From Rhizophagus irregularis (Eukaryota > Glomeromycota > Glomeromycetes > Glomerales > Glomeraceae): DNA of 64,000 nucleotides. The translations under genes and the position numbers were made by a program. Numbering within the stretch: the stretch's first letter is position 1; every line of letters begins with the position of its first letter. Below are positions 6,290-55,067 of the stretch, piece by piece. The stretch lies in contig NC_089430.1 in NCBI RefSeq assembly GCF_026210795.1, forward strand, positions 372,001 through 436,000. Reading direction: 5' to 3'. Under the pieces are notes generated by a model. It was not told where the DNA came from, searched no databases, and was given only the letters and a program-made list of their open reading frames with translations.

Positions 6290-9200
6290 ATGAGTGAAAT
6301 AATCGAAATTAACAATGATGCTGACAAAAACGAAGTTGATGATGTTGATAAAATGGATTTTGATAAAATCGATGTTGATGAAAATGATATTGTTAAAATA
6401 TTTACCTTCGATGATGAACCATATGAACCACATAATGGTAAACCTATTACTAGGATAGAAATATCACTAAATGAAAAATACCTTATTACTTATAGTGAAG
6501 AAGATCGTTCAATTGTCGGTTGGAATGTTGAAGATATAAATAAGATTCAACTTAAGTTTCATCAAACTGTTAAAACTAATGAAGATAATGAAGATAAGAA
6601 ATATGAAATCAAAAGTTTATGCGTTTCTGATTATAAGAAACTTGCTTATATTACTATCCGTCATTATAATGATAGTACTCAATATACTATTACTGGTAAG
6701 TAATAATTATTTGATTATGTAATTATTAAATTATGGTAATTGATATTTATTTTAATATTTTTTTAGTAATCGATATGAATAATAAAGATAAAAAAATTGC
6801 ATTAAGTTTTAATAAATATGGTGCAAATTATTGTACTTTTAATTTAAAAGGTGAATTTATTTTATATAGCTCAGTTTACCCTGGTAATTGTTTTGATATC
6901 CAGGAAATTATTTGGATTTATTCCACACAAACTAAAAATAACAAATGGGAATGTAAGAGATTTTACAGGATACCCAAAGATTATGAATTAATTAGTATAT
7001 CAAAATATGATAAAGTTTACCTGGTTTCAAATGATTACATTTATGAATGGAATATTAATACTGAGAGAAGTGTAAAAATATTTGGTAATAATAAGGATAA
7101 GAATAAGGTAATAAATATTATAAAATTACAAAAAATATCGGAATATTCAGTTATGATGAAAAGTTTATTTCTCTAAAAATCAATGATAAAATCATCGTTT
7201 ATTCAATCGATTTGGGAATTCCTATTGCTTCTTTGGATATAAATGATGGTAACCATTTTTAAAAATTCTATTTATACTTTAATTATTACTCATATTGAAT
7301 CATTATTTTTTTATTTATATATTTACCTTCTTTATTCCTATTATACCCCAGATAAAGAAATCGAATATTGCTGGAATAGTAAATATGAAAATATGTTTAA
7401 TCAAATAAAACTAACTGATGAACCAACTGATGAATCAACTGATGAATCAACTGATGATCAAACAAAGTTTGTGTTTGGAATTCGAAATGGACATGTTTGG
7501 AAATCTAAATTTAACGAAAAGATGTCAAAGACGAACTTTTCATCCGAAATTTCTGTTCATTCATTTAATCTATATATGGATACTGTGTCTACAAATTTTC
7601 TAAAAGTCATAAATCATCGTAGTAGGAGATCTAAATCATTTGAATTAACTGGAAATTTAATTAAATGGAATATATGTATTGAAGATGATAAACTTAAACT
7701 GGAAGTTTTCAAATGGGAATCTATTAGCACAAGAATTACAAGAATTGAAAATCATCCTTATAGATCTAATTATGGTCATTATTTGATTGCGAGCTCATTA
7801 TTTAATAATAATGATATAGTTATATTGACAACATTTGGTATTCTTATTTATACTTTTAGTGAAAAAGACAAATCTATTATTTTAAACTATTTTTATTATA
7901 TCGACCGATATAAATATTGTCAACATTACAAAAAAATATTTTCAAAATCTACTTTGCCGTTACCTAATTATGATAGTTTTAGATTAGATGGGTGGGTTTC
8001 AGATATAATAAATATTAAGTTAAATCTTATGAAATATGGAGGTGAATTATTAAAATTTGCAATTAAAGAACATAAGGTAGAATTAATTGATGATATTTAT
8101 AAAAAATGTATGACTTATTTTAAAGAGGATTTAATGAACAATAAGTCATTTTTAAGCATTATCACTTCCGCAATGCCATTACTAGATAAATATTATCCAG
8201 AATATATTCTAAAATATTCATCAGAAACGAATATGATCATAGATTCTTCTTTTTATAGTATAGAGCATCAAAATAAAAATTTACATCTTTATTCTTTTTT
8301 TCAATCTCCTCAAATAGCTAATTTATCGAAATCTCTTTTATGGACAAAGTACTGTCGTAAAATTGATTACATATATGAAGAATATATTATATTGTATATT
8401 ATATTGTTTATTATACAAGCTTTAATAATACTTTTAACTTTACCCCTTTATTTGGCTACATTTTATATTTTATCAAAATACAATTTTATTAATGATTTAA
8501 CCATTCGTTGTGATTTATTTTCTTTTATTTATTTCTACATTGAACAAAAAATTTTTAAAATTCTTAAAAAATATACAACAATGACACCAACAATTACTTT
8601 TATAATTCCTTATATTAATTTTGTTAATTATTCAAGAGATTATAATTGGTTTTTTGAATTAATTAAACCTCAACCTAGTCCATTTACTGAAACAATAAAT
8701 AGAAATATTTATAAAACATGGAATGGAGAAGCATTAATTAATTTTAAATGGAATGCTTATGGAAAATATTATTATGCAATGATTTGGATTTTATTTATGG
8801 CTTTGCTTGGGTGCTTTACTACTGCTGCAACAATTCCTCAGAAATATATTAATGAAGAAGTTAGACAACAACTTTTTATTGCTTCGATTATACTTGGATT
8901 TATTCATCTAATTTTAGAAATTCGTCAATTTTTTTATAAAATTATTGAGTGGTTCAAGAATTTTTGGAATATTTTTGGTAAATATAAATATTTAATTTAG
9001 TTATTTTACAATATTTTATTAATTATATAATATTTTAATATTGTAGATATAATTGCTTATGTGCTTTCAATTTACACTTCTATTTATTGGCTTCAAACAA
9101 ATGATAAGAATAATAATAAGTATCTAATTCAATTGCTTTCTTTTTCATGCTTATTTTTGGATATAAAATTTTTATTATTTTTTAGAGCATTTGAATATTT

Positions 9201-10255
9201 TGGTGTTTATTTTGCAATTATAATTAGTGTTGGAAAAAAGATTTTTTCTTTTTTATTACTCTTATTCATTATTATAATAAGTTTTGCACATGCATTTTAT
9301 ATTTTATTATCACCAAAATCTGAATTTTCACTTGAACAATATAATACAAATAATAATGATGATCCAAATAATCCTTGGAATTTAGCTCCTAGTTATAGTC
9401 AAATTGATAATAATGGAAATATAAATTCTAATCCACTTATGATTCAAATTCCTGATGGAAATACAAACCTATTTATGGATTTTAAAACTTCCCTTTTTGC
9501 TACATATTTATTTTTAATAGGTATATTTAAATTTTTCATAATTATGTAATTATACACAATATTTTCTAATATTTTTAAACAATTCTACTTATCAATAGGT
9601 GATTCAAGTGCATTATCCAATTGGACATATATCGAAAATCCATCAATTGCAGTATTGATTGTTTTATTTTCCCTTTTAATTGTTATAGATCTTATGAACT
9701 TGTTAATTGGATTACTCAGCAATGCAATTGAAGAAGATAATAATAGAGTCTCATATTTGATGCAAACGGCAGAGGTAAATAATATTATTATTAATCATTC
9801 CATTTCTGTAAATATACTAATATATCTCAACTTTTAGATTTTGGCCGAGATTGAGTTATTTTACCTATTACCAAATCAGAGACGTTGGCAAACATGGTTT
9901 CCTGAAGTAATGTATGTAGTTTTACTTTTAATAAAATAATTTAATGTTATAATTTTATTAATTATTCAAATTTATTTTTTCAAGACATTATTATGCCGAT
10001 GCTGATAAGACTCGAGAAGAAATTCAAAGATTGATTAAAGAGGGTGAATGGGATACAAAGGAATTCACAGAGATGCGGAATGATTTATTAAAAGTACTTA
10101 AAATTAAACATAATCCTATTGATAATGAGGCAATAATGGAGAAATTAAAATCTCATGATGAAAAATTAGAAAAATTAGAAAAATTAGATAAATTAGAGGA
10201 ATTAGAGAAATTAAAGGAATTAGAGAAATTATTGAAAGAAATATGTGCAAAATAA
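6290..10255 (+). CDS. WD-like / TRP-type ion transport protein, eight exons, probable frameshift
   Basis: Exons by GT-AG and phase: 6290-6695, 6767-about 7107, about 7119-7248, 7352-8977, 9047-9520, 9599-9774, 9838-9911, 9985-10255. The N-terminal third has WD/beta-propeller-like strands (LNEKYLITYSEEDRSIVGWN, then YSIDLGIPIASLD). The middle and C-terminal parts carry about six membrane segments, first IILYIILFIIQALIILLTL and last IAVLIVLFSLLIVIDLMNLL. A pore-like loop sits just before the last helix, followed by NLLIGLLSNAIEEDN, as in the TRP/ion transport fold. The tail is a charged coiled coil of KLEKLEKLDKLEEL type. This suits a membrane cation channel with a cytosolic propeller, a family abundant in Rhizophagus as I recall. 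Reading frame changes between 7085 and 7120 without a usable intron; a 1-nt deletion fits. It is therefore a recent pseudogene or contains an assembly error. Ion selectivity is unknown. Confidence 0.75.
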
Positions 10256-11730
10256 TTTTTATCTTATGTTAGTTTTATAATTCAGTTTGTAATTTTAAAT
10301 AATATGGGCTTATCCAAATATTAAATATGTATATTCTTTTTTTTTTTTACTTAGAATTATTTAAACAACAAATGTTAGAGTATTGAATATTTTACAAAAT
10401 TCTTAGTTTGTAATTTAAATAAATCTTGATTTTTCTTTAACTTATCTAACTATTAAATATAAATTATCAAAATGATACATATAGTACTATAAAACCCATC
10501 TCCAATTTGCGAAATCAAAATAAATAATGTAAAATTTTTTATATACATCAAGACGAACCGAACTGATCAGAACTCTAGAAATAGATGAACACAAAAATTT
10601 GGCTCATTATATTGGATATTAATCATATGGATCGGTCCCCGGACCGGTCTTTGCTAGAACCGATCCAACTCTAGTTTATGTGCGGCGACTTTGTCGCCGC
10701 CAGACTTTTATTAAGTTATTAGGTTTTTTTTATGATTATTGTGTTTATAGTAACAAAGTTTTATAGTTTTTTTTAGTAAAATTAGGCTTGTTTTAAGTAA
10801 AATTGGTAAAATCCACTTAAAACTGAGTAAAAATTCGGATAAAATTGCTATTGGTTAGCAACAATAGTTTATATGTCTGAACTATCATAACGCTTGATCC
10901 ATTACAACTAGTTAAATATCTATCAAGTTTTATTTAGTAAAACAATTCATTAGAAATTAATATTAAATTAGTTAATTCAATAAACAATAATTTCGTTATT
11001 GCTTACCAAATTGTTGCAGTATAACATCTATCTGTTATGAGCTATCCATTTCAACTGAAGATAAATGTTCTGATCCAAAAAGTTCTTATTTAGCTATATA
11101 AATAAATATTTCATTAATAATTAGTAATTAGTTAAATAAATAAATAAAAATTACATCATTTACTAACATAATGCAGTATAAGATTTTTCCCATTCAATCA
11201 GTACATTACATCAAGTCCATAACAGATAAAGAAAAGGAGGGTATTGATTGAATAGCAATATTCAAAATGAAAAAAAATAATAAAAAAGGTTAGCCACCTA
11301 TCGTATTATTCCATTTTGATTGGCACCTTCTATTCTGAAGCTACAAATCTGAACCTAAAATAGCAATGAAGAAAAAAATGGGTCGATTAGTAACTTATGA
11401 AATGAAATAAATAAAAAAATCATTCCATTTTGATCAGTTCCTTACTTAAAATTGATAAGTGGATTGGTTAGTAGTAATTCGAATAAAAAAATGTAATGTA
11501 TATTTTGTCAGCAGCATTACATTATGATCAAATGAATAAAAATAATAATAATAAAGGAACAGACGTTATCATCACATGACGAAAAATTTTGTGTTAGGTC
11601 ACCCGATCAAACTATTTATCCATTTTGGAAAATCATACGATGATTTGCATAATTCTTCTCAATAAAAAAATTCCAAATTCCAAAAATCCGATTTTTATTC
11701 TCCAAACAAACTATATTAATATAAGTGATA
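10256..11730. other. Spacer between the channel gene and kinase A
   Basis: AT-rich with no coding signal. It contains GGATCGGT (10629-10636) repeated inverted as ACCGATCC (10659-10666) around a GC-rich core, which may be a transposon end, and the perfect GC hairpin at 10682-10700. The last few hundred bases presumably hold the kinase A promoter. Confidence 0.5.
10682..10700. repeat. Perfect GC-rich 8-3-8 hairpin
   Basis: GCGGCGAC-TTT-GTCGCCGC is a perfect 8-bp stem with a 3-nt loop in an AT-rich spacer. Confidence 0.8.
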
Positions 11731-13436
11731 ATGGAAAACTCAATTAAATATAGATTAAGAAATGCATCAAACAATAAATCTTTAATTCATAAAACACATA
11801 ATATATTAAAGCCAATATTCAAATTATGTAATGAGTGTAATAAAAAAAGAAAACATTGGGATGAAAGTCATCAATGTTGTCATCTATGTTATAAAGCAAA
11901 AACGGTACTTATATCAAGTGGAAATGAAGCTGTTGATGATTTTATAAGGTATACACGAATTAATTGGGATGCAACTGATGCAACCTTTAAAATGGAATTC
12001 GTTCCTTATAATAGATTCAATGATATAGAATTTATTGCTGAAGGAGGTTTTAGTAAAGTTTATAAAGCCACTTGGATTGATGGCCCAATAGCTAGTTGGA
12101 ATTATAAAAAACAAGCGTATCGTCGTAAAGGTAAAATGATGGTCGCTCTCAAGGAACTTAATAATTCTAAAAATATCACTCCAGAAGAATTAAATGAGGT
12201 AAGATATTATTATTAAATTATATTTTTATTTCTCTAATAAGTAATTAATTTAATTTTTATTTTAGCTTAAGATATTTTATGATTTTGCTATAAGACATCA
12301 AAATTCATCAATCATGTATGAATATACAGATAGTTACTATGACTTTAATCATTATCATGATATAAGTAATCATTATGGTATCACTAAAAATCCTATAACT
12401 CAAAATTTTGTGATAGTTACGGATTATTATGAAGGAAATAATCTAACACGTGAAATAGCTAAACATTTTAGCCTTTTATTATGGTATCAAAAGTTACTTA
12501 TTTTAGAAAGCACAATTTATAAACTTGAAATGGTACATAATGTAAATATCATTCATAGAGACTATCATAGTGGAAATATTTTGATTTCAAATGATTTCAG
12601 TTCAACTCTATGTGATTTAGGAATAAGTAAATCTGCAATGGGACATGATGAAGAGATTTATGGCATTATTCCTTATATTGCTCCAGAAATACTTAAGAGA
12701 CAAAATTATACTATAGCTTCAGATATATATGGTTTTGGTATGATTATGTGGGAATTAATGACTGGTAGAAGACCTTTCTGGGATCATGATCATGATACAG
12801 ATCTAATTATTAAGATTTGTGATGGTTTTCGTCCTCCAATTGTCACAAATGCACCTGAAGGTTATGTTGAATTAATGCAAAGGTGTTGGCATTCTGATCC
12901 AAATAAAAGACCTACAGCAACAGAATTACGTAAAAAAATTGTGATTATGAAAAACAATGAACCAGAGTATTATTGTGATGGCATTACTAAAATTGTAAAA
13001 TCACCAGATATTGGACCTGTAAAATCAATTAATCCGGGTGCCATCTATAAAAGTAGATCCTTGAGTGAGATGATAAAATCTGCAGAGTCTACAAGAAGTT
13101 TAGAAAGTATTGATTCAGAAATTAGTAATAACAAATTTGAAGATAATTTAACTATAAATGATAATGGTACAATAAAACTTAGCATTATCTATTTTCTAAT
13201 TATATCATGATTTTTTTTACATACTAATATTTCTTTTATTTGTTAGACTATTTAACAAAAGAAATTGAATTGGATATTGATAACGATACAAGTTTTGGTG
13301 ATTCTAAAGATGATGGTAAGCAAATACCAAATAATTGTTTACACTATTTTTTTTTTGTTTTTTGCCAATTTACTAATTTTAATTATAATATTTTATCACA
13401 GATTATGTTACTGAAGAGATCAATTTTGATATATGA
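11731..13436 (+). CDS. Protein kinase A (TKL-like) with N-terminal Cys ribbon
   Basis: Exons: 11731-12198, 12266-13166, 13247-13315, 13402-13436. The first intron is phase 0 and the last two phase 1, and all splice in frame to a TGA at 13434. Residues 35-57 carry CNECNKKRKHWDESHQCCHLC, a zinc-ribbon-like cluster. The kinase fold follows: glycine loop EGGFSKVYKATW, beta3 lysine in MVALKELNNS, catalytic loop HRDYHSGN, DLG in place of DFG, PYIAPE, SDIYGFGMIMWELMTG, and the RCWHSDPNKRPT helix. All catalytic residues are present, so it should be active on Ser/Thr or Tyr. It lacks the NWTSG leader seen in its neighbours, where SSGNEAVDDFI stands instead. The C-terminal tail is acidic and probably disordered. 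The ATG at 11731 is preferred because the only in-frame codon upstream is GTG. Confidence 0.88.
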
Positions 13437-17402: not shown

Positions 17403-19584
17403 TTAATTACCATCAGGAAGTTCAAATTCATTTTGTTCTTCCAAATGAAAATTTGGATTATTATAGTATATTTCATCCTCATCTATAAAAACAAAAGAAA
17501 AAACAACTTAAAATTAATTATTGAAATTATATAGTTTAGATAATCTTACATACCATCAACGTTAATATTATTTTTCTTCACTTTTTGTTGCATTGTTTCT
17601 CCTTTATAATCATTTTGAATATCTTAAAAAATTTAAATAAAATTATGTTTTTAATATTAAATAAATTTTAGATCAATATAATAATTATTATTTTACTTGC
17701 CATTCTTTGAATTCCTTTTAAATATTTTGGATAACTTCTTACTATCAACTATATTATATAATTTAGTATAAAATTAATCATTGAATATTTTGATTATCGT
17801 AAAACAAATAATTTTGACGTACTATTCTTCTGAATACCCGATTTATCAAATTCATCAACTAAAAAAAAGTTAAAATAGATAAATATAATGTTTATTTTAC
17901 AGAAATCCAATAATACTTACTATTATCAGGAATAGATAAGTCATATGATTTACTATAAAATGCTAAAATGTCCACGAAACAAACACAATTATTAATTATT
18001 TTAAATAAATACTATAAATAAATTTAAATTTATACCTTCTAGTTCTTCTATTGTTTATATAATAAAGCATCATTGATTAATATTTAGTATCTTAATACTT
18101 TTTCTAAATATTTAACAAAACAATTCATTATAATAAATATAATACCTTCTGTTGCATTTCTGGGTTCAGGAAGATTGTCAAATTGATGAAGTTTACTTGC
18201 AGATAAACTACTACTACTACTTGTATAATTTTCTATACTTTTCCATTCTAAATTATTATTTACTTCTGGTTGAGTTAATGATTCATTTGATTTATTTTGA
18301 TAAAATAAATTGATTTCTTTTATTTTCTTCCAAAGTGCAGCAACATCGGGTCTTTTAAATGGATCAGCATCCCAGCATTGTTTCATTAAATTTTTATATT
18401 CTAAAGGAGTTCCTGGTACAATTTTTGGTCTTATACCATTAACAATATTCATTGCAAGATCATAATTATGTTCATAATTAATAAATGGTGGTTGTCCAGA
18501 TGAAATTTCCCACATAAGCATTGCAACACTATAAATATCAGATTTATGAGTCTGTACTTTTCCAATAATAACCTCAGGTGCCATATAAGGAAGATTTCCA
18601 TATATACTTTTTAATGGTTTATCCGCAGGTCCACAAAACCCAAGATCACTAATATTAAGTCCAAAATTTTTAAGTAATAAATTTCCAGAATGCAAATCTC
18701 TATGAATCGCATTCTCTTCATGAATTCTTATAAGTGAAAAAATTATATTCTCAGCAATTTGAATTCTTTCTTTCCATGTAAGTTTATTATGATTTTGTTG
18801 TAAATATTTTCTTAAATCTATATCCATTTCATACATTACAAGCATATAATTTCCATTTGATGGATCTTGTGTTAAACCAAAACATTGGACGATTTCGGTC
18901 CATTTATTGCTCATATTTAAATGTGATTTTGCCTATAAAAATAAAATATTAATATAACTTATAATATTAATAATTTTTTAAATACTTTAAATTACAAACC
19001 TCATCAAACCAATTTTGATTTGCATTTTCAACATTTACTAGTATTTTAAGCACTACAACATGTTCTCCAAATCTTTTTAATTGTTGTTTTTTAGAATCCC
19101 ATTCTTTATATTTTCCATTAATCCAATCTGCTGTATAGATTTCAGAGCATCCACCTTTTGTTAGATATTTGATATTTTTTAAATTATCATATGGAATCCA
19201 TTCTGGTATCCTATTTGGTGCCAGTGTTTTCATTTGACACTCTTGTAATAAATTATCAATATCAACATTTCCAGATGTCCAATTTGAAAAATTTGCTTTT
19301 AAATAATTTCGAACACAAAGTTCACAAAATAATGTAGCTAAACATTCTTGGTTACAATTTTCACAAATTCTTTTTGTTCCTTCATTAAACGTAATTTTTT
19401 CATCATCATAAGTTTTAGTTAATATTGTTATTGCTTCAGATTTCTCATTTTCTGTAAGTGATTCATCTGCAAGAACTGTTTGTTTTTTAAATTCAAATTG
19501 TTTATGTATATCATTGTAAATGTTATAATCTATTAATGCAAATGCTCCCTCAATTGCAAAATAAATTTTATCATTATAGGACAT
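17403..19584 (-). CDS. Protein kinase B (TKL-like) with zinc ribbon and C-terminal micro-exons
   Basis: Exons on the minus strand: 19584-19000, 18932-18146, 18047-18036 (12 nt), 17962-17921, 17858-17823, 17748-17701, 17622-17554, 17482-17403. The first intron is phase 0 and all later ones phase 1. The intron after 17701 has a GC donor (GCAAGT). The N-terminus is helical. Two CxxC pairs (CENC...CELC) form a ribbon, followed by NWTSGNVDIDNLLQ and EWIPYDNLKNI. Glycine loop is TKGGCSEIYTADW, beta3 lysine VVVLKIL, then HRDLHSGN, DLG for DFG, PYMAPEV, SDIYSVAMLMWEISSG and CWDADPFKRPD. The tail ends YNPNFHLEEQNEFELPDGN. Catalytic residues are intact, so an active cytosolic kinase is likely. I recognise this subfamily from Rhizophagus, including the ELPDG-like end. 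The frame is unbroken over all eight exons. Confidence 0.88.
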
Positions 19585-21151
19585 AATGAATTATATTGTA
19601 GAAGCTTCAAACTTTTAAAAATTAATTTAGAAAAAGTTTCTCAGAATGGAGTCAAATAAATTTATCAAAGTTAGTTGTGCAACTCAATGATCGTTACAAA
19701 AAAAAAATCGTACTACACGAGTCTGTGGTACGGGTTTGTACATTGTAAAAGGCGTAAAATTTTATACCAAAGACATGTGTCTTGCTTTTGTAGTTTTATT
19801 ATTTTTTTTTTTTTACAAGACAAATTTCCTGCATGTAGGTAAAATATTATAGTATTATGGCAATAAATAATCACAAACTTTTATTTGTGTATATTTTATC
19901 GTTCGTTTTATTTTTAAACTAGTACAATTATATGTGTGGTTAAGAATTCTTTGTTATACATATAAAGTTAATAGCAAATAACTGTATTACAGAATCAGAA
20001 CTAAAGGGATAAATTGATTTAATTGTGTAATGTTGTGTAATGTTGTGCAATGGTCCACTTGAAATTTTTTTTATGCCGATCTTATCATCAGATAGTAAAA
20101 CTTGTAACTTGTAAAAACCGAAAATTACAAGAAAAAACTAAAAGGAATAATATAGAATAAATAATAATATTTTTAGGAGAATTGATTAATATTTCATTAA
20201 ATGTATTCTTTTATGGAAATTTTATAAATAATTTGACGCGATACTCAATAAATAAATTTTACATCTTGTTTTTTAACGTAAAACTTTAACAGAAATTTGG
20301 TTTCTTCACGTGACTGGGTGGGTCCTGTTCTTTAGGAGATTTTTTGGCATTTTGTCTATTAAAATAATTGACTGAAACTTGATACTTATTTGATTCCAAA
20401 CAATATTTTAATGTGATAAATAAATTTATTAATAACAAGAAAAATTATAAAATTCAATGACTAATTATACCTTAATCTTAAATCCTATGTGACATGTGAC
20501 GCACGTCAGTTACAGTATCATCTGAGATCCTGACGCAAAGAGTTATTTATTTTTCACTGTAATTCACATATTAAACATATTAAAGCAACTAGAAAATTAA
20601 TACCGTGAAATTCTTTACATCTACTAAAAAAAGTTGCATCTCAATTAGTTATTGAATAACACAAAAATTACTCCTCATTATCAAATCTATCTAGTTTTAT
20701 AAATTTTTTATTTAATTAATAAACTCAGAAAATATATATAAAATAAACAATATAAATAAACTAAATTATAATATCTTCACAATTCAAAATCCTACTTAAT
20801 GTCATTCTTAATCAATCAATCCTATTGGAATAATTATCGAGGTGTAAATTTGTAAACTATATTTTTTTTAGAACCTCACAAAAAAACTACGATATATGTA
20901 ATTTTAAACTATATTGACGGAAAAATTCAAAGATATAAAATCATTACAGAATTACTTACGATTTAAATAATAAAAATAAACAAACAAATAAACTGACTAT
21001 TCTTAATAAACAGTGCTATAATAAATGTAAGTTTAAAATTTACCATCTTTATTAAATGTTTAGTTGAGAAATATCAATTTGCAAAGATAACGACACTAAT
21101 TAATAAATAAAGTTTTCATTAATAATTTACAACTAATTTAAATACTTTTTA
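19585..21151. other. Spacer between kinase B and gene C
   Basis: AT-rich, with no coding signal on either strand. It contains the kinase B promoter side and the 3' flank of gene C. Confidence 0.5.
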
Positions 21152-24100
21152 TTAACCATTACCTGAAGATTCCATGCTAATTATATCATCGTTCTGATTA
21201 TCATAATAATCGACAGTATTTTTTGGTTCAGGAAGATTATTAAAATTAAGCAATCTACTGGTATAAATATCTTCTGAACGTGATTTATATGATAATCCTA
21301 AGCTGGTTGAAGGTGCACTACTGACCGCCAAATTCTTATTGATATTTTCTGCTTCTCTAATTTGTATTTGTATTTCATGATTTTTCAATTTATTAAATAA
21401 TTCATTAGACCATTGATTTAAAATTTTTTTGATTTCTTCTGCTTCTGGTCGAGTTAACGGATTTGAATCTAAGCATCTTTTAATTAAATGGACAATTAAT
21501 TGTGGTACTTTGATATAAAACCTTGGCCTGAGTCCTTTACAAATTCTTATTGCTAAATTATGATCATGACTTACATCATGATATGGAGGTAATTCAGAAA
21601 TTACTTCATACATAATAATACCAAAACTATAAATATCTGAGGCTTTGGTATAATTTTGTCCTCGTAAAATTTCAGGAGAAATATAAGGTAAAATACCATA
21701 TGTACTCTTTTTTGCATTTTCTGATGGATTGTAATCTGCAGGTTTACATAATCCCATGTCGGTTATACAAGTGAGATCTTTGAACCTTAGTATATTGCCA
21801 ATATGTAAATCTCGATGAATTAATTCGTTTTTATGAATATCTGCAAGCCCTCGTGCAATGCTAAGTAAATAATTAATTTTATCATTAAGATATAATTTGT
21901 TATGATTTTTATTTAAATAATTTCGTAAATCTCCATCCTCTGCAAAATCTAAAACCATAGCATAATTTTCTGTTTCTGGATCTTGAGTTATTCCATAAAG
22001 TTTAACAATACACCTACCCAAATTTACTTTACAGTGTGATGTAATCTAAAATAAATGTATATATATTAGCAAAATTAAATATTTGCAACTTTTCAAATAA
22101 TAAAATTAGTTACCTCATTCATAAACTCTAATGTAACATTTTTTGAATTATTCAAACATTTTAATGCCACCAACATATTTTTATTCCTTCTTCTCCAATT
22201 TTGATTTTTATTATCCCATTTATCTATACATCCATCAATCCAATTTGCTTTATACACTTTACCAAATCCACCTTTTGCAATATAAGTAATATCATGAAAT
22301 TTATTGTAAGGTATCCATTCCAACGCATGGCATGCATTATAACTATGGTCTGATAGCTGAATATCTTGAATAAATCCATCAATATCATTATTACCACTTG
22401 TCCAATTATTGAAATTTTGTTGAAAATGTAATGCATTACACACATGCTTATATTTTTTACATTCTTCACTATAAGCTACTATATAATTTTTTGTCTCCGG
22501 ATCCTTAGTTATCCCATAAACTTCATGAAAACCTATAAACTATAAAAATAAAATATTAACGAAAATAAAAATTTTCAGAATTTCATTAATAATAAAAATA
22601 ATAAATTCATACCTCATTAATAAATTTTAACAAAACGTTTTCTGAACTATTAAAGCTTCTCAAAGTTACAATCATATCTTGATTTTTTCTTTTCCAATTT
22701 TGATTTTTATCATCCCATATATTTATATATCCATCAATCCAATTAGCTCTATATAATTTATCAGAAAAATTTTGAAGTTGCAGATCTGCGCATACTTTTG
22801 TAGTACATTTAATGTTATAAAATTTATCATAAGAAATCCATTCTAATGTTTTTGATATCTGATAGGTATTATGTGACAATAGCTGAGTAGTCTGAATAAA
22901 TTCATCAATATCATTATTACCACTAGTCCAATTTTTGAAACTTCGTTGAAAATGTATTGCATTGCATACTTTTTTACATTTTTCACATATATCTTTCAGA
23001 ACAAGCATATAATTTTGTGTTTCTGGATCTTGGGTTATCCCATAAACTTTATTATCAAATCCTATAATCTGCAACTAAAATAAAATAACACTGAAATATA
23101 TTAGTAAAAATAAAATTTTATAAATTATACTAAATGAAAAATAATTTTAATACCTTATTCATTATAAATTTTGATTCAATAGATTTTGGATCTGTACTTA
23201 AATTTTTTAAAATTACAAACATATTTTGATGCTTTCTTTCCCATTGACCTTTATTATCCCATTGGTTTATATATCCATCAATCCAATTTGCTCTATATAC
23301 TTTATCACTATTCTTTGCAATACATTCAATATTATAAAATTTGTCATAAGGTATCCATTCTAATACTTTTGATAATTGATAGGTTTTATGTAATAGTTGA
23401 GAATTTTGAATAAATTCATCAATAATATTATTACCACTAGTCCAATTTCCAAAATTTAGTTGAAAGTGTATTGCATTACATATATTATTACATTGCTTAC
23501 ATGTTAAAACTACCATGTATTTTTCTGTTTCTGGATCTTGGGTTATTCCATAAACTTTATAGGAACCTATAGTCTACAAATAAAATAGATGTATTGAATA
23601 TAATAACAAAAAATATTTTATTAAATAATAGTATTAATTATACCTTATTTAATTCGCTAACTTTTAAAACATTTAAACTTTTCAAAATCAAATAAATATA
23701 TTTGTCTTTTCTTTTCCAATTTTGATTTTCATCATTCCATTCATTTATATATCCATCAATCCAACTTGCTCTATATATTTTATCTTTTACAATGCATTTA
23801 ATATAAAATTTATCATAGGGTATCCATTCTAATGCTTCTGATAATTGATAGGTTTCATGCGATGATAGTTGAGAATTTTGAATAAATTCATCAATAATAT
23901 TATTACCACTAGTCCAATTTCCAAAATTTAGTTGAAAGTGTATTGCGTTACATATATTATTACATTGCTTACATGTTAAAACTACCATGTATTTTTCTGT
24001 TTCTGGATCTTGGGTTATTCCATAAACTTTATAGGAACCTATAGTCTACAAATAAAATAGATGTATTGAATATAATAACAAAAAAATATTTTATTAAATA

Positions 24101-27100
24101 ATAGTACTAATTATACCTTATTTAATTCGCTAACTTTTAAAACATTTAAACTTTTCAAAATCAAATAAATATATTTGTCTTTTCTTTTCCAATTTTGATT
24201 TTCATCATTCCATTCATTTATATATCCATCAATCCAACTTGCTCTATATATTTTATCTTTTACAATGCATTTAATATAAAATTTATCATAGGGTATCCAT
24301 TCTAATGCTTCTGATAATTGATAGGTTTCATGCGATGATAGTTGAGAATTTTGAATAAATTCATCAATAATATTATTACCACTAGTCCAATTTCCAAAAT
24401 TTAATTGAAAGTATATTGAATTACATACATCATTACATTTTTCGCATGTTAAAACCACCATGTAATTTTCTGTTTCTGAATCTTGGGTTATTCCATAAAC
24501 ATTATCGAATCCTATAATCTGCAACTAAAATAAATAACATTGAATATATTAGTAAACATTAAATTTTATAAATTACATTGGGTGAAAAATAATTTTAGTA
24601 CCTTATTCATTTTTGATTCAATAGATTTTGGATTTGTACTTAAATTTTTTAAAATTACAAGCATATTTTGATGCCTTCTTTCCCAATTTTGACCTTCATT
24701 ATCCCATTGGTTTATATATCCATCAATCCAATTTGCTCTATATACTTTATTTCCGCTTGTTGAAATACATTTCATGTCATAAAATTTGTTATAAGGTATC
24801 CATTCTAATGATTTTGATAATTGATAGGTTTTATGTGATGACAGTTGAGAATCTTGAATAAATTTATCAATAATATTATTACCACTAGTCCAATTTCCAA
24901 AATTTAATTGAAAGTATATTGCATTACATATGTCATTACATTTTTTACATGTTAAAACCACCATGTAATTTTCTGTTTCTGGATCTTGGGTTATTCCATA
25001 AACTTTATAGCAACCCATAGTCTAAAATGAAATGGATATATTAAATATACTAACAATAATCAAAATATTCAAAATATTTTAATAAATGAATGATAATATT
25101 AATTATTACCTTATTTAATTCACTAACTTTTAAAATATGATCTAAACTTTTCAAAATCATAGATATATTTTGGCCTTTTCTTTCCCAATTTTGATTTGCA
25201 TAGTCCCATTTATTTATATATCCATCAATCCAATTTGCTCTATATACTTTATTACCACTTTTTGAAATACATTTAATATCATAAAATTTGTTATAAGGTA
25301 TCCATTCTAATGCTTTTGATAATTGATAAATTTTATGTGATGATAGTTGAGAATTTTGAATAAATTTATCAATAATATTACTACCACTAGTCCAATTTCC
25401 AAAATTTAATTGAAAGTATATTGCATTACATACATCATTACATTTTTCACATGTTAAAACCACCATGTAATTTTCTGTTTCTGAATCTTGGGTTATCCCA
25501 TAAACATTATTAAATCCTATAATCTGCAACTAAAATAAATAACATTGAATATATTAGTAAATATTAAATTTTATAAATTACATTAGGGGAAAAATAATTT
25601 TAGTACCTTATTCATTTTTGATTCAATAGATTTTGGATTTGTACTTAAATTTTTTAAAATTACAAGCATATTTTGATGCCTTCTTTCCCAATTTTGACCT
25701 TCATTATCCCATTGGTTTATATATCCATCAATCCAATTTGCTCTATATACTTTATTTCCGCTTGTTGAAATACATTTCATGTCATAAAATTTGTTATAAG
25801 GTATCCATTCTAATGATTTTGATAATTGATAGGTTTTATGTGATGACAGTTGAGAATCTTGAATAAATTTATCAATAATATTACTACCACTAGTCCAATT
25901 TCCAAAATTTAATTGAAAGTATATTGCATTACATACATCATTACATTTTTCACATGTTAAAACCACCATGTAATTTTCTGTTTCTGAATCTTGGGTTATC
26001 CCATAAACATTATTAAATCCTATAATCTGCAACTAAAATAAATAACATTGAATATATTAGTAAATATTAAATTTTATAAATTACATTAGGGGAAAAATAA
26101 TTTTAGTACCTTATTCATTTTTGATTCAATAGATTTTGGATTTGTACTTAAATTTTTTAAAATTACAAGCATATTTTGATGCCTTCTTTCCCAATTTTGA
26201 CCTTCATTATCCCATTGGTTTATATATCCATCAATCCAATTTGCTCTATATACTTTATTACTACTTTTAGAAATACATTTAATATCATCAAATTTGTTAT
26301 AAGGTATCCATTCTAATGCTTTTGATAATTGATAGGTTTTATGTGATGATAGTTGAGAATCTTGAATAAATTTATCAATAATATTACTACCACTAGTCCA
26401 ATTTCCAAAATTTAATTGAAAGTATATTGCATTACATACATCATTACATTTTTCACATGATGTTAAAACCACCATGTAATTTTCTGTTTCTGAATCTCGG
26501 GTTATTCCATAAACTTTATAGCAACCTATAGTCTAAAATGAAATAGATACGTTTGAATATGTTAATAAAAATTAAAAATCCTATTAAATAATAATATTAA
26601 TTATACCTTATTTGTAAGTGTTAATTCACTAATATTTGAAATATTTAAACTTTTTAAAATTACAACCATATTTTGATGTTTTCTTTTCCAATGTTGATTT
26701 TCAACATTCCATTTATTTATATATCCATCAATCCAACTTGCTCTATATATTTTATCTTTTACAATGCACTTATTAATATAAAATTTATTATAGGGTATCC
26801 ATTCTAACACATTGTATGATACAAAATAATTATGTTCTAATAGTTGAGTATCTTGGATAAATTTATCAACATAATTATTACCGCTTGTCCAATTTTTGAA
26901 ATTTTGTTGAAAATGTATTGCATTACATATATAACCACATTCTTCACATATATCTTTCTGAACTATTATATAATTTTTTGTATCTGGATTTTGAGTTATC
27001 CCTATTGTTAACTATAAGTATAATAAATTAATAAGAGGTATACTGTTTAAAAAATGATAAAATAACTTGCCTTGTTTACAAATTCTGATATATTATATTT

Positions 27101-27972
27101 TGGATCACTTAAATTTTTTAGAATTACAAACATATTTTGATGCCTTCTTTCCCATTGACCTTCATTATCCCATTGGTTTATATATCCATCAATCCAATTT
27201 GCTCTATATACTTTATTACTATTTTTTGCAATACATTTAATATCATAAAATTTGTTATAAGGTATCCATTCTAATGCTTTTGATAATTGATAGTTTTTAT
27301 GTGACAATAGTTGAGAATTTTGAATAAATTCATCAATAATATTATTACCACTAGTCCAATTTCCAAAATTTAGTTGAAAATGTATTGCATTACATATATT
27401 ATTACATTTTTCACATGTTAAAACCACCATGTAATTTTCTGTTTCTAAAATTTGGGTTATTCCATAAACTTTATAGCAGCTGATAATCTACAAATGAAAT
27501 AGATATGTTTGAATATGATATTAACAAAAATAAAAATCTTATTAAATAATAGTATCAATTATACCTTATTTGTAAGTGTTAATTCACTAATATTTGAAAT
27601 ATTTAAACTTTTTAAAATTACAACCATATTTTGATGTTTTCTTTCCCAATTTTGATTTTTATCATCCCATTTATTTATGCACCCATCAATCCAATTTGCT
27701 TTATATACTTTGTTTTTTTCAATGTACTTAATATTATGAAATCTATCATAAGGTATCCATTCTAGTGCTTTTTCTGCATCGCTATGAGCTAATAGTTGAG
27801 TATTTTGGATAAATTTATCAATATCATCATTACCACTAGTCCAGTTTTTAAAATTTTGCTTAGACCGTTTTTCAAAACAAATTTTATAACATTTTATAAA
27901 TATCTTATCTGACTTGTATAGAATAATGATGAGTATGAAGAAGAAGGCACCAATAATTTGAATGAAACCCAT
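21152..27972 (-). CDS. Gene C: modular kinase, twelve tandem N-lobe modules plus one catalytic domain
   Basis: Thirteen minus-strand exons: 27972-27565, 27487-27071, 27011-26607, 26532-26110, 26032-25607, 25529-25110, 25021-24602, 24524-24117, 24045-23644, 23573-23154, 23074-22613, 22539-22114, 22045-21152. All twelve introns are phase 0, and one (after 27071) has a GC donor. No stop interrupts the join, giving about 1976 residues. Exon 1 starts at an ATG and encodes a hydrophobic segment (residues 3-19, FIQIIGAFFFILIIILY) followed by basic residues, so a membrane anchor with a cytosolic array is inferred. Exons 2-12 are module copies. The final exon carries YGITQDPETENYAMVLDF, HRDLHIGN, DMG for DFG, PYISPEI, SDIYSFGIIMYEV and RCLDSNPLTRPE. 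With module 12 (AKGGFGKVYKANW, VALKCLNNS) it completes one full kinase. It could be several genes if promoters lie inside, but the unbroken frame argues for one. Confidence 0.8.
22114..27972 (-). repeat. Tandem exon array in gene C (12 units, period about 470-535 bp)
   Basis: Each unit is one exon of 134-154 codons plus an intron. A unit carries VYGITQDxETENYMVVL, CxKCNxxCNAIxFQ, NFxNWTSGNNxID, LEWIPYxKFY, a glycine-loop remnant, YRANWIDGYIN, and a VILK-type beta3 lysine ending in NK. Unit 1 has the anchor instead of the hinge segment. Loop remnants: IEKNKVYKANW in 1; AKNSNKVY or SKSGNKVY types in 2, 4, 5, 6, 7 and 10; IVKDKIYRASW in 3, 8 and 9; an extra VCADLQLQNF stretch in 11, which also has TLRS where the lysine should be. 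Unit 12 alone is normal. Units start either LQIIGF-like (5, 6, 8, 11) or TIGCYK-like (4, 7, 9, 10), and end NPKSIESKMNK-like or VSELNK-like in mosaic combinations, a sign of exchange between copies. Confidence 0.9.
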
Positions 27973-44926: not shown

Positions 44927-46215
44927 CAGTCACGTCCGAAAGTGACGCCCGATTTAAAATTAATGCCAAAAATGGCAAAACTTTATTGATTTTCATTAAA
45001 ATTCACATAAAAAATAATTACTAAAAATGGTTAATAATGTGTTGGCCCTCCCCTTGCTTCTAGTACTGCATTTATTCTTTGTGGCATTGAAGCAACAACC
45101 TCTTCAAAAATGGAGCAATCCAAATTTTCCCATTCTTCACTTAGTGCAACTTTAAGTTCATCCACAGTTCTTGGAAAGACTTTACAACTCTGGATATTGT
45201 CCTTTAACTGCTTCCAGATGTTTTCTATTGGATTTAGATCAGGAGAATTTGCCGGCCAATCAATAACCACAATTTTATTCTTCTTCAACCAATCCTTGGT
45301 TATTTTCGCGGTATGTATGGGTGCATTATCCTGTTGAAAAATTGCAGCCCTTCCTGTTAACTCATGAACTGTATGCTGAAATGGATACAGATATGAATTT
45401 AGGATTCTAATGTAAGTATTTGAATTGATTTTTTTATTTCCTTCTTTATTTTCATCACAAAAAATTAATGGCCCTTTTATCCCTCCTGCAAAACAGCCAC
45501 AAACCATGACTGATTTTTGACCACTTTTAAAGATAGGTGTCAAGCATTCAGTGTTAAACCTTTCCCCTGTGTGTCTCCAAACTCTTATTTGTCGTGACTG
45601 CTTGCCAATCTCAACACTTGATTCATCTGAGAAAATAACTTGTGCCCAATCATAAGCTGTTTTTTCTTTATATTTCTCACACCAACTAATACGAGCTAAT
45701 GCATGCTTTTCTGAGATAAAGGGTTTTTTTGCAGCAACATGGGAATAAATTCCAACACTATGTAATGCTCTTTTAGCAGTTGTAAGGCTGCAATTTAAAT
45801 CTAATGTATTAATGACTTCATGTAAAGGTTCGCATCGATCTTGTGTAACTTTGTTTATGAGTGCATTTTTCTCATTATTATTGAGAGCAGGTGGACACCC
45901 CGATCTAGGTAAATTTTCAGTTTTCCCTGTCTTCTTGTATCTGTCAATAATTCTTCTTATTGTGGTGGGGTCACGACCCATTTTTCTTGCTATTTGTGCA
46001 GGGTTAAAATTCTCCATATATGCTAGTATTTTTCCTTTATCTTGAGAAGTTAACTCAGTTCTATGTGACATTATTTTTTTAACTTTGCAACGCGTTTATT
46101 AGGTTATGAAATTGTGAGAAAAACATTTAAAAATAAAAAAAAGGGGGTATAAATAATGTAAATTTTGTGTATCATAACACCGTACAAAATCGGGCGTCAC
46201 TTTCGGACCTGACTG
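44927..46215 (-). mobile_element. Tc1/mariner element, complete, with TA target duplication
   Basis: 1289 bp between TA dinucleotides (44925-44926 and 46216-46217). The ends are inverted repeats of about 30 bp: left begins CAGTCACGTCCGAAAGTGAC, right read inward begins CAGTCAGGTCCGAAAGTGAC, with one mismatch. It carries one intact transposase on the minus strand. The related flank at about 59515 lacks it. Confidence 0.93.
45031..46071 (-). CDS. Tc1/mariner transposase (DD34E)
   Basis: 346 residues, intact from ATG to stop, the usual length for Tc1 transposases. The N-terminal half has paired helix-turn-helix domains (KILAYMENFNPAQIARKMGRD and TTIRRIIDRYKKTG, then LPRSGCPPALNNNEK). These bind the inverted repeats. 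The catalytic domain shows the DDE residues: VIFSDESSVEIG, then FQQDNAPIHTAK, then WPANSPDLNPIENIWKQLK with 34 residues between the second Asp and the Glu. The enzyme cuts and pastes the element at TA sites and acts in the nucleus. Nothing is broken, so the copy may be active or recently inserted. Reading opposite to the flanking kinase genes is incidental. Confidence 0.95.
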   Translation of the reverse strand: MSHRTELTSQDKGKILAYMENFNPAQIARKMGRDPTTIRRIIDRYKKTGKTENLPRSGCPPALNNNEKNALINKVTQDRCEPLHEVINTLDLNCSLTTAKRALHSVGIYSHVAAKKPFISEKHALARISWCEKYKEKTAYDWAQVIFSDESSVEIGKQSRQIRVWRHTGERFNTECLTPIFKSGQKSVMVCGCFAGGIKGPLIFCDENKEGNKKINSNTYIRILNSYLYPFQHTVHELTGRAAIFQQDNAPIHTAKITKDWLKKNKIVVIDWPANSPDLNPIENIWKQLKDNIQSCKVFPRTVDELKVALSEEWENLDCSIFEEVVASMPQRINAVLEARGGPTHY

Positions 46216-48315: not shown

Positions 48316-51300
48316 ATGTCATCTCAAAATGATATTATATGTGAAAGTTGTAATAAAATATATACAGATATTGATCATGAATGGTGTAAACCATGTGTAA
48401 TAAATAACTTAAAAAAAAATATCACGAACTGGACTAGTGGAAATGAAAATATTAATAATTTTATTCGAAAAATGCAATTAAAAATTAAAAAATATGATGA
48501 TATAATTGTTGAATGGATACCTTACAACCAATTTAATAATGTTAAACAAACAAACAAAGATGGTCTTGCTACAGCAATATGGAAGGATGGTTTATTAAAA
48601 TATGATGAAAAAGAAAGGAAACGTAAAAGATTATTTAATATAGAAGTTTCTTTAAAATGCTTGAACAATTCACAATCAAATGAGGTATGAAACTTCTATT
48701 TTTTTTGTAGTTTATTCTTAAAGTGCTTTTATTATAACAACCTTTTATATTAATAGGATGAGACATATTCCATTAAAGTAAATGAATATGATGATATTTT
48801 CAAAATATATGGAATATCCCAAAATCCAGATACAAAAAATTATATTATAGTACTTAATAATAGTTATTGCAAAGAATGTGGTGAAATATATACAAATGTA
48901 TGGGGAAAATGGTGTAAACCATGTGGAATAAATAATTTAAAACAAAATTTTACAAACTGGACTAGTGGGAATAAAAAAATTGACGAATTCATCCAAGAAA
49001 TGCAATTGTTAATTGAAAGTTATAATGATATAATTGTTGAATGGATACCTTATAACCAATTCAATAATGTTAAAAAAATAGGTAAAGATGGCTTTGATAT
49101 AGCAATATGGAAGAATGGTTCATTAAAATACAATTATGAAAAACTAAAATATGAAAGAGAACCTAATAAAGAAGTCACTTTAAAATGCTTGAATAATTCT
49201 CAAAATGTTATCAGTAACTTGCTAAATGAGGTATGAAACTTCTAATTTTTGTAATTTAATTCTTAAAAATACTTTATTTTAACAACTTTTATATTTAACA
49301 GGCTAAAGTATATTCCTATTATGAATATAATATTCCCAAAATATATGGAATATCCCAAAATCCAGGTACAAAAAATTATATTATAGTACTTAATAATAGT
49401 TATTGCAAAGAATGTGGTGAAATATATACAAATGTATGTGGAAAATGGTGTAAACCATGTAGAATAAATAATTTAAACCAAAATTTTACAAACTGCTGGA
49501 CTAGTGGGAATGAAAAAATTGATGAATTCATCCAAGAAATGCAATTGAAATTTGAAATATATGATGATATAATTGTTGAATGGATACCTTATAACCAATT
49601 CAATAATGTTAAAAAAATAGGTAAAGATGGCTTTGCTACAGCAATATGGAAGAATGGTTCATTAAAATACAATTATGAAGAAATAAAATATGAAAGAAAA
49701 CCTAATAAAGAAGTCACTTTAAAATGCTTGAATAATTCTCAAAATGTCATTAGTGGCTTGCTAAATGAGGTATAAAACTTCTAATTTTTGTAATTTAATT
49801 CTTAAAAATACTTTATTATAACAACTTTTATATTTAACAGGCTAAAGCATATTCCTAGTGCCTCGACCCGTATCCGGATCAATCCGGATTGATCCGGATT
49901 TTTTTTTTTTTCGGATATCCGGATTTTCACGGTTTTCATCCGGATTATAAACCGGATGAAAAATATCCGGTTTGACCCGGAATCCGGATGAAATTTTTAT
50001 TATTTTTTTTTTATTAATAATAATTTTGCTGATCCATAAAGATCTATATCTAAATGATATTATGGCTAATTATTTTTGCGCCTAATACCAATTTTTTTAT
50101 TAAAATTTATTAAATTTATATTTGTTATATTAAACTTTTTAATACAGTAAGTTTAAGAAGATTTTTCAATTATAATTTATTTATTGAAGTTTGTATCAGA
50201 TTTGTTTATTTAAATTTATACATTAACAAATAACAAATAATTTTAGATTTCACATTCAAACGTTCAAAAGAAAAAAAACTTTATATTATTTTTGTTAAAA
50301 CAAAATAATAATTATTGTTTTAAATGAAAAATTGTTCAATATTATAAATTTATATAATTATAACGACTTTTTTAAAAAATTAAAACTAGTGTTATATAAT
50401 TTGATTCAAATGATTCTTTAATTTTTGAAAGAAGAAACAAATCCTTAAAAAATTGCCTTACTAACCCAACACATCTATTTATAGTAATCTTTAGCTGTAT
50501 ATAAAAATATCTTGTTTAAAATTTCATAATTAGTTAATTTACAAAGAAATGTTAAACAATAGTCTGAGACAATGCTGAAATAATATGAAATTGTTTTAAA
50601 GAAAAGTATTTAATGAAATTGGAATTATGTAAATTTCGTGGTCTTGGATAATTTTGGCCAAATTTGTAATTCTGGCCGAAATTAAAATCACGTGACACCG
50701 GAAAAATAGTTTAGCCACCGGGCAAAAAATTTTTTATCGGCTGGCATGAAAATTTAATGTTACACAATTTGTAATTCTGGCCGGCGTTATGAATTCTGGC
50801 CAGAATTATTGCCGATCATTTGTAAATCCAATCCGGTTTCCGGTTTCTATCCGGATTATCTGATCCGGATTCAAAATCCGGGTCAATCCGGATATAATCC
50901 GGATTTTTTTTTTGTGTAATCCGGATGACGGTTTTCATCCGGGTCGAAGCACTACATATTCCATTAAAGTAAATGAATGTAATATTCCTAAAATATATGG
51001 AATATCCCAAAATCCAGATACAAATGATTATATTATAGTATTTAATAATAATAGTTGTTGCAAAGAATGTGGTGAAACATATACAGATATATGTAGAAAA
51101 TGGTGTAAACCATGTAGAATAAATAATTTAAAACAAAATTTTACAAACTGGACTAGTGGGAATAAAAAAATTGACGAATTCATCCAAGAAATGCAATTGT
51201 TAATTGAAAGTCATAATGATATAATTGTTGAATGGATACCTTATAACCAATTCAATAATGTTAAAAAAATAGGTAAAGATGGCTTTGCTACAGCAATATA

Positions 51301-54300: not shown

Positions 54301-55067
54301 ATGGTGGAAATTTTAATAATTACAATAATTACATCAGTAGGAATTACACTTGGAATGAAAAATTGGTTGTACTAAGTAAAATTGGTAAAGGTCTTAAAAT
54401 AATTCATGAAAATAAAGTAGTTCACCGCGATTTCCATACAGGAAATATATTGGTATCAATTAATAATAATAGTTATTATTATATATCTGAAAATCATTCA
54501 AGTAATATATATATTTCAGATATGGGATTATGTGGAGAAGTCAGTAATATAGACAAAACAAAAATTTATGGAGTCATGCCATTTGTAGCTCCTGAAGTAT
54601 TAAGAGGAAAACCATATAGCCAAGCAGCAGATGTATATAGTTTTGGTATGATTATGTATTATATTGCAACTGGAAGACAACCTTTTGCCAATTGTGCTCA
54701 TGATAGTGTTTTGGTATTAAATATATGTAATGGAATTAGACCTGAAATAAATGAACAAGAAGCACCAAAATTTTATATTGATTTAATGAAAAATTGTTGG
54801 GATGAAGATCAAGATAAGAGACCAAGTGCTATTGAAATAGTAAAATTGGTCAATGATCCTTATTGTTCTGTTATAGATGAAGAAATTAAAAAGCAAATTG
54901 AAAAAGCAGAAGAATATAAAAGAACAAATTTTTTGTCTACTAGAAATAGTCAATCAATTCATCCACAAGCTTGTTATACTTCTCGATTACTCAATCCATT
55001 TACACAAGATCTTTCAAAAGATGATACTAGTTGTACTGAATGTTTAGATTGCGTTATTATTGATTGA
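48316..55067 (+). CDS. Gene E: modular kinase, tandem N-lobe modules plus one catalytic domain
   Basis: Exons: 48316-48684, 48757-49230, 49302-49769, (damaged 49841-51421), 51493-51954, 52026-52496, 52568-53035, 53107-53577, 53653-54129, 54198-55067. All introns are phase 0 and most are exactly 71 nt. Skipping the damaged exon leaves an open frame of about 1509 residues. Exon 1 starts MSSQNDIICESCNKIY and has a full ribbon (CESC...WCKPC), NWTSGNENIN and VEWIPYNQF. The last module has the only intact loop, GKGGFATVYLAVW, with VALKCLHNS. The final exon has FGISQNPDTNNYIIVLEYVDGG, HRDFHTGN, DMG for DFG, PFVAPEV, ADVYSFGMIMYYIATG, NCWDEDQDKRPS and a QACYTSRLLN tail. One active kinase carrying a string of pseudo-N-lobes is inferred. 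No membrane anchor is seen, unlike gene C. Confidence 0.8.
49841..51421 (+). pseudogene. Damaged module exon of gene E
   Basis: The exon begins normally (GCT AAA GCA TAT TCC) but is interrupted after 15 nt by a 1.1-kb element. Downstream, the Trp codon of the AIWKNG motif is TAG (51299-51301). The remaining module and its 3' splice donor are otherwise normal. Because both flanking introns are phase 0, skipping it would keep gene E in frame. Confidence 0.88.
49856..50954. mobile_element. hAT-like non-autonomous element (1099 bp)
   Basis: The ends are TAGTGCCTCGACCCG and, read inward, TAGTGCTTCGACCCG (15 bp, one mismatch). They are flanked by the exact 8-bp duplication CATATTCC (49848-49855, 50955-50962). 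An 8-bp target site and a terminal YARNG-type pentamer (TAGTG) fit hAT. Both subterminal regions are packed with ATCCGGAT motifs in both orientations, likely transposase-binding sites. There is no transposase frame. The sibling exon at 52026 gives the empty-site sequence. Confidence 0.92.

Follow-up and report, generated by a model that had tools for sequence, protein, structure and literature searches.

In this study, we describe a gene of the arbuscular mycorrhizal fungus Rhizophagus irregularis that is predicted to encode a row of eleven kinase N-lobes lacking the glycine loop (pseudo-N-lobes), followed by a single complete kinase. The gene lies on the minus strand of the window, as we call the whole 64,000-nucleotide stretch analysed (assembly GCF_026210795.1, contig NC_089430.1; C2:372001-436000 in our numbering), and the genome searches reported below covered 146,748,485 bases on 32 contigs. 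The preliminary description of this DNA had treated the gene as singular, a view that did not hold: the same plan was found in 20 other arrays of its subfamily (type 1) and in a second kinase subfamily (type 2) of the same genome. With so many genes sharing it, this layout appears to be a protein-building scheme that is being maintained, and not an isolated curiosity in decay. We favour the reading that the pseudo-N-lobes are binding repeats serving the terminal kinase, with a probability of roughly 0.45.

Architecture of the window gene

Rebuilt exon by exon, the 13 minus-strand exons (27972-21152) splice into a single open frame of 5907 nt, which encodes 1968 amino acids and contains no internal stop. 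All 12 introns are in phase 0 and 59-88 nt long, and every exon length is divisible by three. Eleven introns are GT-AG and intron 2 is GC-AG (AAG/GCAAGT, donor at 27070). The thirteen exons and twelve phase-0 introns without a stop that had been proposed earlier are thereby confirmed, and one continuous gene, probably transcribed as one mRNA, is supported as a gene model. The proposed length of about 1976 residues stands only if optional residues are counted: introns 4, 5, 7 and 10 end in tandem acceptors 6 nt apart (TAG/TTGCAG/, at 26026, 25523, 24518 and 23068), each offering an optional Leu-Gln at a module joint, and as our model takes the downstream acceptor, four such dipeptides would explain the difference of exactly eight. 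The exons are listed here, with grounds other than the gene model in brackets.

27565-27972, minus strand: exon 1, with the start codon, the hydrophobic stretch FFFILIIILY and the first pseudo-N-lobe, beta1-3/alphaC part (comparison with the sister array L009)
27071-27487, minus strand: exon 2, pseudo-N-lobe module, GC donor at 27070
26607-27011, minus strand: exon 3, pseudo-N-lobe module
26110-26532, minus strand: exon 4, pseudo-N-lobe module
25607-26026, minus strand: exon 5, pseudo-N-lobe module, tandem acceptor
25110-25523, minus strand: exon 6, pseudo-N-lobe module, tandem acceptor
24602-25021, minus strand: exon 7, pseudo-N-lobe module
24117-24518, minus strand: exon 8, pseudo-N-lobe module, tandem acceptor
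23644-24045, minus strand: exon 9, pseudo-N-lobe module, 96% identical to exon 8 in DNA (DNA comparison)
23154-23573, minus strand: exon 10, pseudo-N-lobe module
22613-23068, minus strand: exon 11, pseudo-N-lobe module with an insertion at the glycine-loop site, tandem acceptor (motifs)
22114-22539, minus strand: exon 12, the sole intact N-lobe, with GGFGKVY, VALK and FMNE (motifs; Pfam PF07714 over exons 12-13)
21152-22045, minus strand: exon 13, beta4-5, C-lobe (HRDLHIGN, DMG, SPE), C-terminal tail and stop (Pfam, motifs)

Internal exons run in the order beta4-beta5 (for example VYGITQDSETENYMVVL; in exon 13, LYGITQDPETENYAMVL), cysteine linker, NWTSG segment, beta1-beta3 and helix C. Each N-lobe thus straddles an intron, with beta1-beta3 and helix C taken from one exon and beta4-beta5 from the next. 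In place of a C-lobe, the following unit starts at the hinge with its cysteine linker and NWTSG segment, which come directly after beta5 in exons 2-12.

Exons 12-13 carry a full set of kinase motifs (GGFGKVY, VALK, FMNE, HRDLHIGN and TDMG), DMG standing in exon 13 where the canonical DFG is expected. Taken together they matched PF07714 (E 1.9e-44, residues 86-350, profile positions 6-257 of 258), and their best match in the PDB, in two stretches, was 7t6f ('Tyrosine-protein kinase'; presumably a JAK), with TAK1 entries close behind. We predict the terminal kinase to be a complete kinase of the TKL/tyrosine-kinase-like type. Within the gene, the glycine loop, the VALK lysine and the helix-C glutamate, which we take to be the canonical sites from general kinase knowledge and the Pfam match, occur jointly in exon 12 alone. 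None of exons 1-11 has a GG loop; helix C ends in NK in exons 1-10 and in NE in exon 11, which keeps the glutamate without the loop. Exons 1-11 also have no C-lobe, the sole C-lobe and sole HRD of the whole protein being those of exon 13. The twelve pseudo-N-lobes counted originally therefore have to be corrected, as exon 12 is intact: the gene comprises eleven pseudo-N-lobes and one kinase.

With exon 5 as the reference, identity ranges over 52-94% among the other eleven modules (57% for exon 12), and at this level the homology of the upstream modules to exon 12 is plain. Searched as 12 single exons against Pfam, none gave a kinase match, exon 12 included; the blank results of the upstream modules are hence no argument against kinase descent. 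It also follows that Pfam counts would not show such modules and that existing annotations may hide them. Tandem Repeats Finder, whose longest period is 500, did not report the array, and a scan of the 5' flank built for bacterial promoters found fewer sites than in shuffles.

Recurrence and turnover of the arrays

We searched the genome with a module and with exon 1 and considered the best 150 matches of each; as thousands of first-look candidates stayed unscored, the resulting counts are lower bounds. Including the window, at least 277 distinct modules fell into at least 92 clusters, at least 62 of which hold two or more modules and at least 42 three or more; 45 of the 92 listed clusters lie on C2. 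Two or more listed modules stand upstream of 52 of the best 150 catalytic exons. Listed module clusters crowd at C2 4.85-5.87 Mb and C14 0.25-1.2 Mb, an arrangement reminiscent of resistance-gene clusters.

Twenty type-1 arrays were fetched, mostly large ones from the 62 clusters with at least two modules, so that the sample favours long arrays; counts out of 21 add the window gene. All 20 follow the plan of a first exon, further modules and one 3' catalytic region (several in pieces), with 3-15 modules before the last one. In their first exons the profile match begins at position 15-25, and beta4-5 is mostly or entirely missing. Among the hits tallied as modules in these arrays, some are pieces of a single broken module. 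The phase-0 AG...GT pair was present at 174 of 180 full-length modules in the 20 arrays, and each of the wrong phases at 1/180.

The last module has two loop glycines in all 21 arrays (GGHGK in one), whereas upstream modules have glycine at the first loop place in 9/189 cases and at the second in 25/132. Similarly, the VAxK alanine is found in 19/20 last modules (L010 has VVLK; L006 is cut), with a mixture upstream, and the helix-C glutamate in 20/20, the upstream residue being K in 102/146 and E in 41/146. Other positions are retained upstream: the beta3 lysine in 182/200 modules, the three cysteines in 196/198, 194/198 and 197/200, W44 in 198/199 and W74 in 197/200. A D-x-G motif is present in all 21 catalytic exons.

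Within the window gene, exons 4, 5 and 7 are 96-97% identical, introns 4 and 5 are identical and introns 8 and 9 are 99% identical; introns were copied along with exons. In a first tree of the longer modules (213 of 228 extracted hits), last modules grouped with one another rather than with the arrays they belong to (7 changes, compared with a mean of 19.4 after shuffling and 0/500 shuffles as low), and did not form one single clade. Two sister genes, L009 and L013, share counterparts at the array ends with the window gene (modules 1-3 with L009, 11-12 with L013; support 81-100), exon 1 and its L009 counterpart being 85% identical in amino acids over 110 codons. The middle of the window array (exons 4-10) is longer than in either sister. 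Among the three genes, synonymous divergence (dS) is 0.07-0.10 for catalytic exons and 0.20-0.32 for last modules, and module numbers are 12 in the window, about 6 in L009 and 5 in the partly broken L013. Array length probably changes through gain and loss of middle units.

Linkage within arrays decays over one module length, and the history of one exon end says almost nothing about that of the other (mean r 0.04, 19 arrays). Neither the exon nor the intron-straddling N-lobe could be upheld as the unit of exchange, mean r across introns being 0.33 (17 arrays) against 0.28-0.49 for adjacent segments inside the exon. By eye, exon ends in the window seem paired by type with the starts of the next exons, with no excess over the 17 arrays. 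A membrane-like start as a hallmark of the family was likewise rejected: a stretch resembling FFFILIIILY occurs in the window gene and L013 and not in L009, and a 17-residue hydrophobicity score above 2 was reached in 4/21 first exons (window, L013, L012, L016), in L012 and L016 from an upstream ATG that is possibly not the start.

A further 12 catalytic exons were sampled with about 2 kb or more of upstream sequence, and 10 of them have a single N-lobe exon in front. In these simple kinases, the N-lobe exon has the same cysteine linker, NWTSG and glycine loop (in L031, one of the ten, the N-lobe is in two pieces), and the next exon contains beta4-beta5 and the C-lobe. Judged from this layout, the array exon looks like a composite, in which the leading part of an exon 2, ending at the hinge, is joined to an exon 1 from the cysteine linker onwards, and fusion in this order may have given rise to it. 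L032, a short stretch, has at least two modules. L028 (1483-3697) has three modules and a catalytic exon, the second module lacking its beta4-5 start, and is possibly an early or decayed stage.

The second subfamily, marked by YGISQNPDT and four cysteines in the linker, is represented in the window by the following features.

48328-54132, plus strand: type-2 array of nine modules, of a different kinase subfamily (motifs)
50993-51424, plus strand: broken type-2 module, with a stop codon and an inserted element at the exon start
54198-55067, plus strand: catalytic exon of this array (gene reading)
63060-63935, minus strand: catalytic exon of the YGISQNPDT subfamily, whose upstream exons would fall at or beyond the window edge

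GKGGFATVY and VALK occur together only in the last module of the array (53698-54132). The element inside the exon start of the broken module is 1,099 bp long (49856-50954, plus strand; 49848-50962 with its repeats). Its ends are short inverted sequences (TAGTGC.TCGACCCG), accompanied by the 8-bp direct repeat CATATTCC; repeats of this length suggest that it is hAT-like. Seven more type-2 arrays were fetched, mostly from large clusters, which again favours long arrays, and all eight share the plan. Their last modules have GKGGF in 8/8 and VALK in seven (IALK in L038); a few upstream modules of L036 and L037 keep VALK and lack the loop. Phase-0 splice pairs were found at 40/43 full modules (wrong phases, 4 and 0). 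At least 33 type-2 clusters have two or more modules among the best 150 hits, 17 of the 33 on C14. Between C14:713585-715732 and C14:721174-723321, four module hits are repeated with the same scores, each shifted by 7,589 bases, which suggests that part of an array gene was duplicated very recently.

A tree was built from 98 of 99 N-lobe rows over 100 columns, with samples of 40 type-1 and 21 type-2 upstream modules; the tree program omitted one type-2 last module. A branch with support 100/100 separates the 28 rows from type-2 arrays from all others, the 59 rows from type-1 arrays lie on a branch of 96/78, and 11 simple kinases fall outside both. This suggests, as the simplest reading, two separate origins of arrays; a single old origin of both types with later replacement is still a tenable reading of the tree.

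Selection on the modules and their possible role

The absence of stops from near-duplicate exons had been taken earlier to argue for selection or for very recent expansion. In a neutral simulation using the substitution spectrum of the array introns (80 modules per level, no indels, no selection), 0.05 changes per site produced 2.5 stops per module and left 9% stop-free, and 0.10 produced 4.5 and left 0/80. The most diverged window modules have reached dS of about 0.5-0.6 with zero stops. Recency as the sole cause of the missing stops is thereby ruled out, and recent expansion is real for some units, such as the nearly identical exons 4, 5 and 7 with introns 4 and 5. Across the genome, a stop was found inside 3 of the best 150 six-frame module matches, which by their scores lean to intact copies, and in 2, 2 and 6 of the best 150 matches to exon 1, type-2 modules and catalytic exons, respectively.

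As the base composition makes Nei-Gojobori (NG86) ratios imprecise, ratios of nonsynonymous to synonymous differences (pN/pS; longer modules only, 214 of 228 hits) were compared with the simulation instead of with 1. Pooled pN/pS was 0.69 in the window, 0.75 within arrays and 0.55 among last modules, against 1.03-1.13 under neutrality. The dN/dS comparison of modules proposed in the preliminary description thus points to selection, as do the stop-free modules themselves. Keeping the frame open for the downstream kinase would suffice to explain the missing stops; the conserved core is not explained in this way. By region (629 pairs from 20 arrays, restricted to matching gaps and a pS of at most 0.25; ten regions, uncorrected), pN/pS was 0.33 for NWTSG and its helix (neutral 1.03), 0.35 for WIDG (1.33), 0.61 for EWIPY (1.14), 0.66 for the cysteine linker and 0.70 for beta4-5. 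The glycine loop (1.03; neutral 1.26), helix C (0.94; 0.84) and the insert (0.91; 1.00) gave values near neutral. Only the spacer between the first helix and EWIPY gave 1.53 (bootstrap 1.28-1.84; neutral 1.19), an excess that is suggestive only: scaled by module-wide pS it becomes 1.42 (1.04-1.82), an interval that includes the neutral 1.14.

N-lobes of such kinases often mediate kinase-kinase contacts. On our preferred reading, the protein, cytosolic or membrane-anchored, would present eleven tandem ATP-free N-lobes and then one complete kinase. The pseudo-N-lobes would fold without binding ATP, and their row would constitute multivalent docking repeats with a repeated binding surface. Binding of partners along the array might then recruit substrates or partner kinases to the terminal kinase, or switch or target it.

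Several observations weigh against this reading. Catalytic exons have HRD in 19/21 type-1 arrays (HQD in L015; no match in L008). Upstream modules with a GGF loop number three in type 1, of which L005 has two (with VILK) and L008 one (too short for this site to be read), and in type 2 one upstream module of L038 has GKGGI. End-to-end joining under simple rules succeeded in 9/21 type-1 arrays, the window included; the other 12, L013 among them, show defects or unusual splice sites or run into a locus edge, which means that some members of the family are in decay or have been modelled wrongly. Such broken arrays mean that decay occurs and is visible when it does. L020 contains a first-exon-like module within the array and may be two genes. 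Constraint is uneven: upstream pN/pS is only mildly under neutral (0.75; L001 1.00, L017 1.05), and beta3 (0.59) is barely under its own neutral value of 0.70. Structure prediction for a single module reached a mean predicted local distance difference test score (pLDDT) of 43 with 12 window sequences and 66 with 21, and Foldseek found no match in the PDB at E up to 0.001. VIA-align gave weak rows, the best being a RIPK2 N-lobe (Z 3.2, root-mean-square deviation 6.1, 49 aligned); its top rows included kinase N-lobes for residues 73-140 as well as unrelated folds for residues 1-72.

Two rivals are serious. The first, which we consider unlikely but give real weight, is that the pseudo-N-lobes are a recognition or decoy array, mimicking N-lobes to which proteins of foreign or non-self origin bind, such as effectors or those of other isolates or endosymbionts, and reporting this binding to the terminal kinase, with the variation in length and spacer as the point. 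It would fit the spacer pN/pS, the mosaic shuffling by which exon ends have almost unrelated histories, the difference in array length between close paralogues and the clustering of array genes (45/92 listed clusters on C2, 17/33 listed type-2 clusters on C14), although the spacer signal weakens when scaled and comes from one of ten uncorrected regions. In a wider form, to which we give somewhat less credence, the N-lobe would be a free-standing ATP-free repeat domain that arose at least twice, and mosaic, spacer-hypervariable arrays would act as a large recognition repertoire, each wired to one conserved terminal kinase; if true, this would be a fungal equivalent of the diversifying receptors that serve immunity or self/non-self discrimination.

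The other serious rival, in our estimate doubtful and ranking behind both of these forms, is a passenger array, in which unequal exchange multiplies modules that are themselves idle and whose frame is kept only for the downstream kinase. As this rival would predict, introns were copied with exons and near-neutral evolution is seen in the glycine loop, helix C and the insert; selection on the frame would by itself be enough to eliminate stops. The conservation of NWTSG with its helix, WIDG, EWIPY, W44 and W74 goes beyond frame-keeping, however, and two subfamilies with the last module spared in every fetched array also speak against it, though conservation merely for folding would fit as well. 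An exon bank, whose phase 0-0 cassettes would be skipped or chosen by alternative splicing to vary N-lobe number or kind, is less likely than either and quite improbable: phase-0 introns and exons divisible by three would make internal exons skippable without a frameshift, and four exons have tandem acceptors, but as alternatives to exon 12, 11/12 choices would have no glycine loop, and the introns are short, as fits constitutive splicing.

Known systems and other features of the window

Kinases are usually viewed as two-lobed and half-kinases as debris; here, lone N-lobes are multiplied, largely in frame and with their core kept. If the modules work, they would be a new repeat domain for signalling proteins, and would offer a handle on why an arbuscular mycorrhizal fungus has some 2,500 kinases (2,533 were counted in R. 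irregularis, according to the accessible part of PMC10234402).

In plant tandem kinase-pseudokinases (WTK1/Yr15), inactive kinase-derived copies and an apparently active kinase share one protein, as far as the available portion of PMC6170490 describes them; the same portion attributes the inactive copies to duplication or fusion and proposes a decoy role as one possibility. The gene model and motifs of the window gene fit an inactive part linked to a predicted active kinase in one predicted protein. Plant proteins consist of two-lobed units, whereas the window protein has one C-lobe in total and repeats the N-lobe alone; also unlike them, the fungal arrays have 3-15 N-lobes before the last one, each built across an intron. 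The arrays perhaps work like the plant proteins, and would appear to be a departure within the pseudokinase-kinase kind, in which the repeated unit is a half-domain rather than a domain.

Dscam-type arrays of mutually exclusive exons share with the window gene tandem similar exons of equal phase; in them, one array exon enters each transcript. Janus kinases have one complete pseudokinase domain N-terminal to the active kinase in the same chain, along with FERM and SH2 domains, whereas the window gene has a row of half-domains. They are named as sharing the kinase-pseudokinase structure in the abstract of PMC6170490.

The expanded kinase genes of R. irregularis described in PMC10234402, PMC8647823 and PMC6123716 apparently belong to the same genome; their accessible text covers gene number, location and methylation and no N-lobe arrays, with PF07714 as the most frequent motif among expanded genes (PMC6123716, in part). 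Nor do such arrays appear in the parts seen of PMC4219462, PMC6170490 and PMC8778642, the last of which, in excerpt, reports MLKL-family homologues with Sel1 repeats confined to Glomeromycotina. In the open-access literature, we found no paper on an N-lobe-array architecture, most subscription papers lying outside this scope.

The remaining features of the window include two simple kinases.

11725-13210, plus strand: kinase of a related subfamily, one N-lobe exon and one catalytic exon
18084-19590, minus strand: kinase of a related subfamily, one N-lobe exon and one catalytic exon

An open frame of 354 codons at 45031-46095 (minus strand) presumably resembles a Tc1/mariner-type transposase. 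At 7243-9549 (plus strand), two open frames, both long and rich in hydrophobic stretches, presumably resemble an ion channel of the TRP kind.

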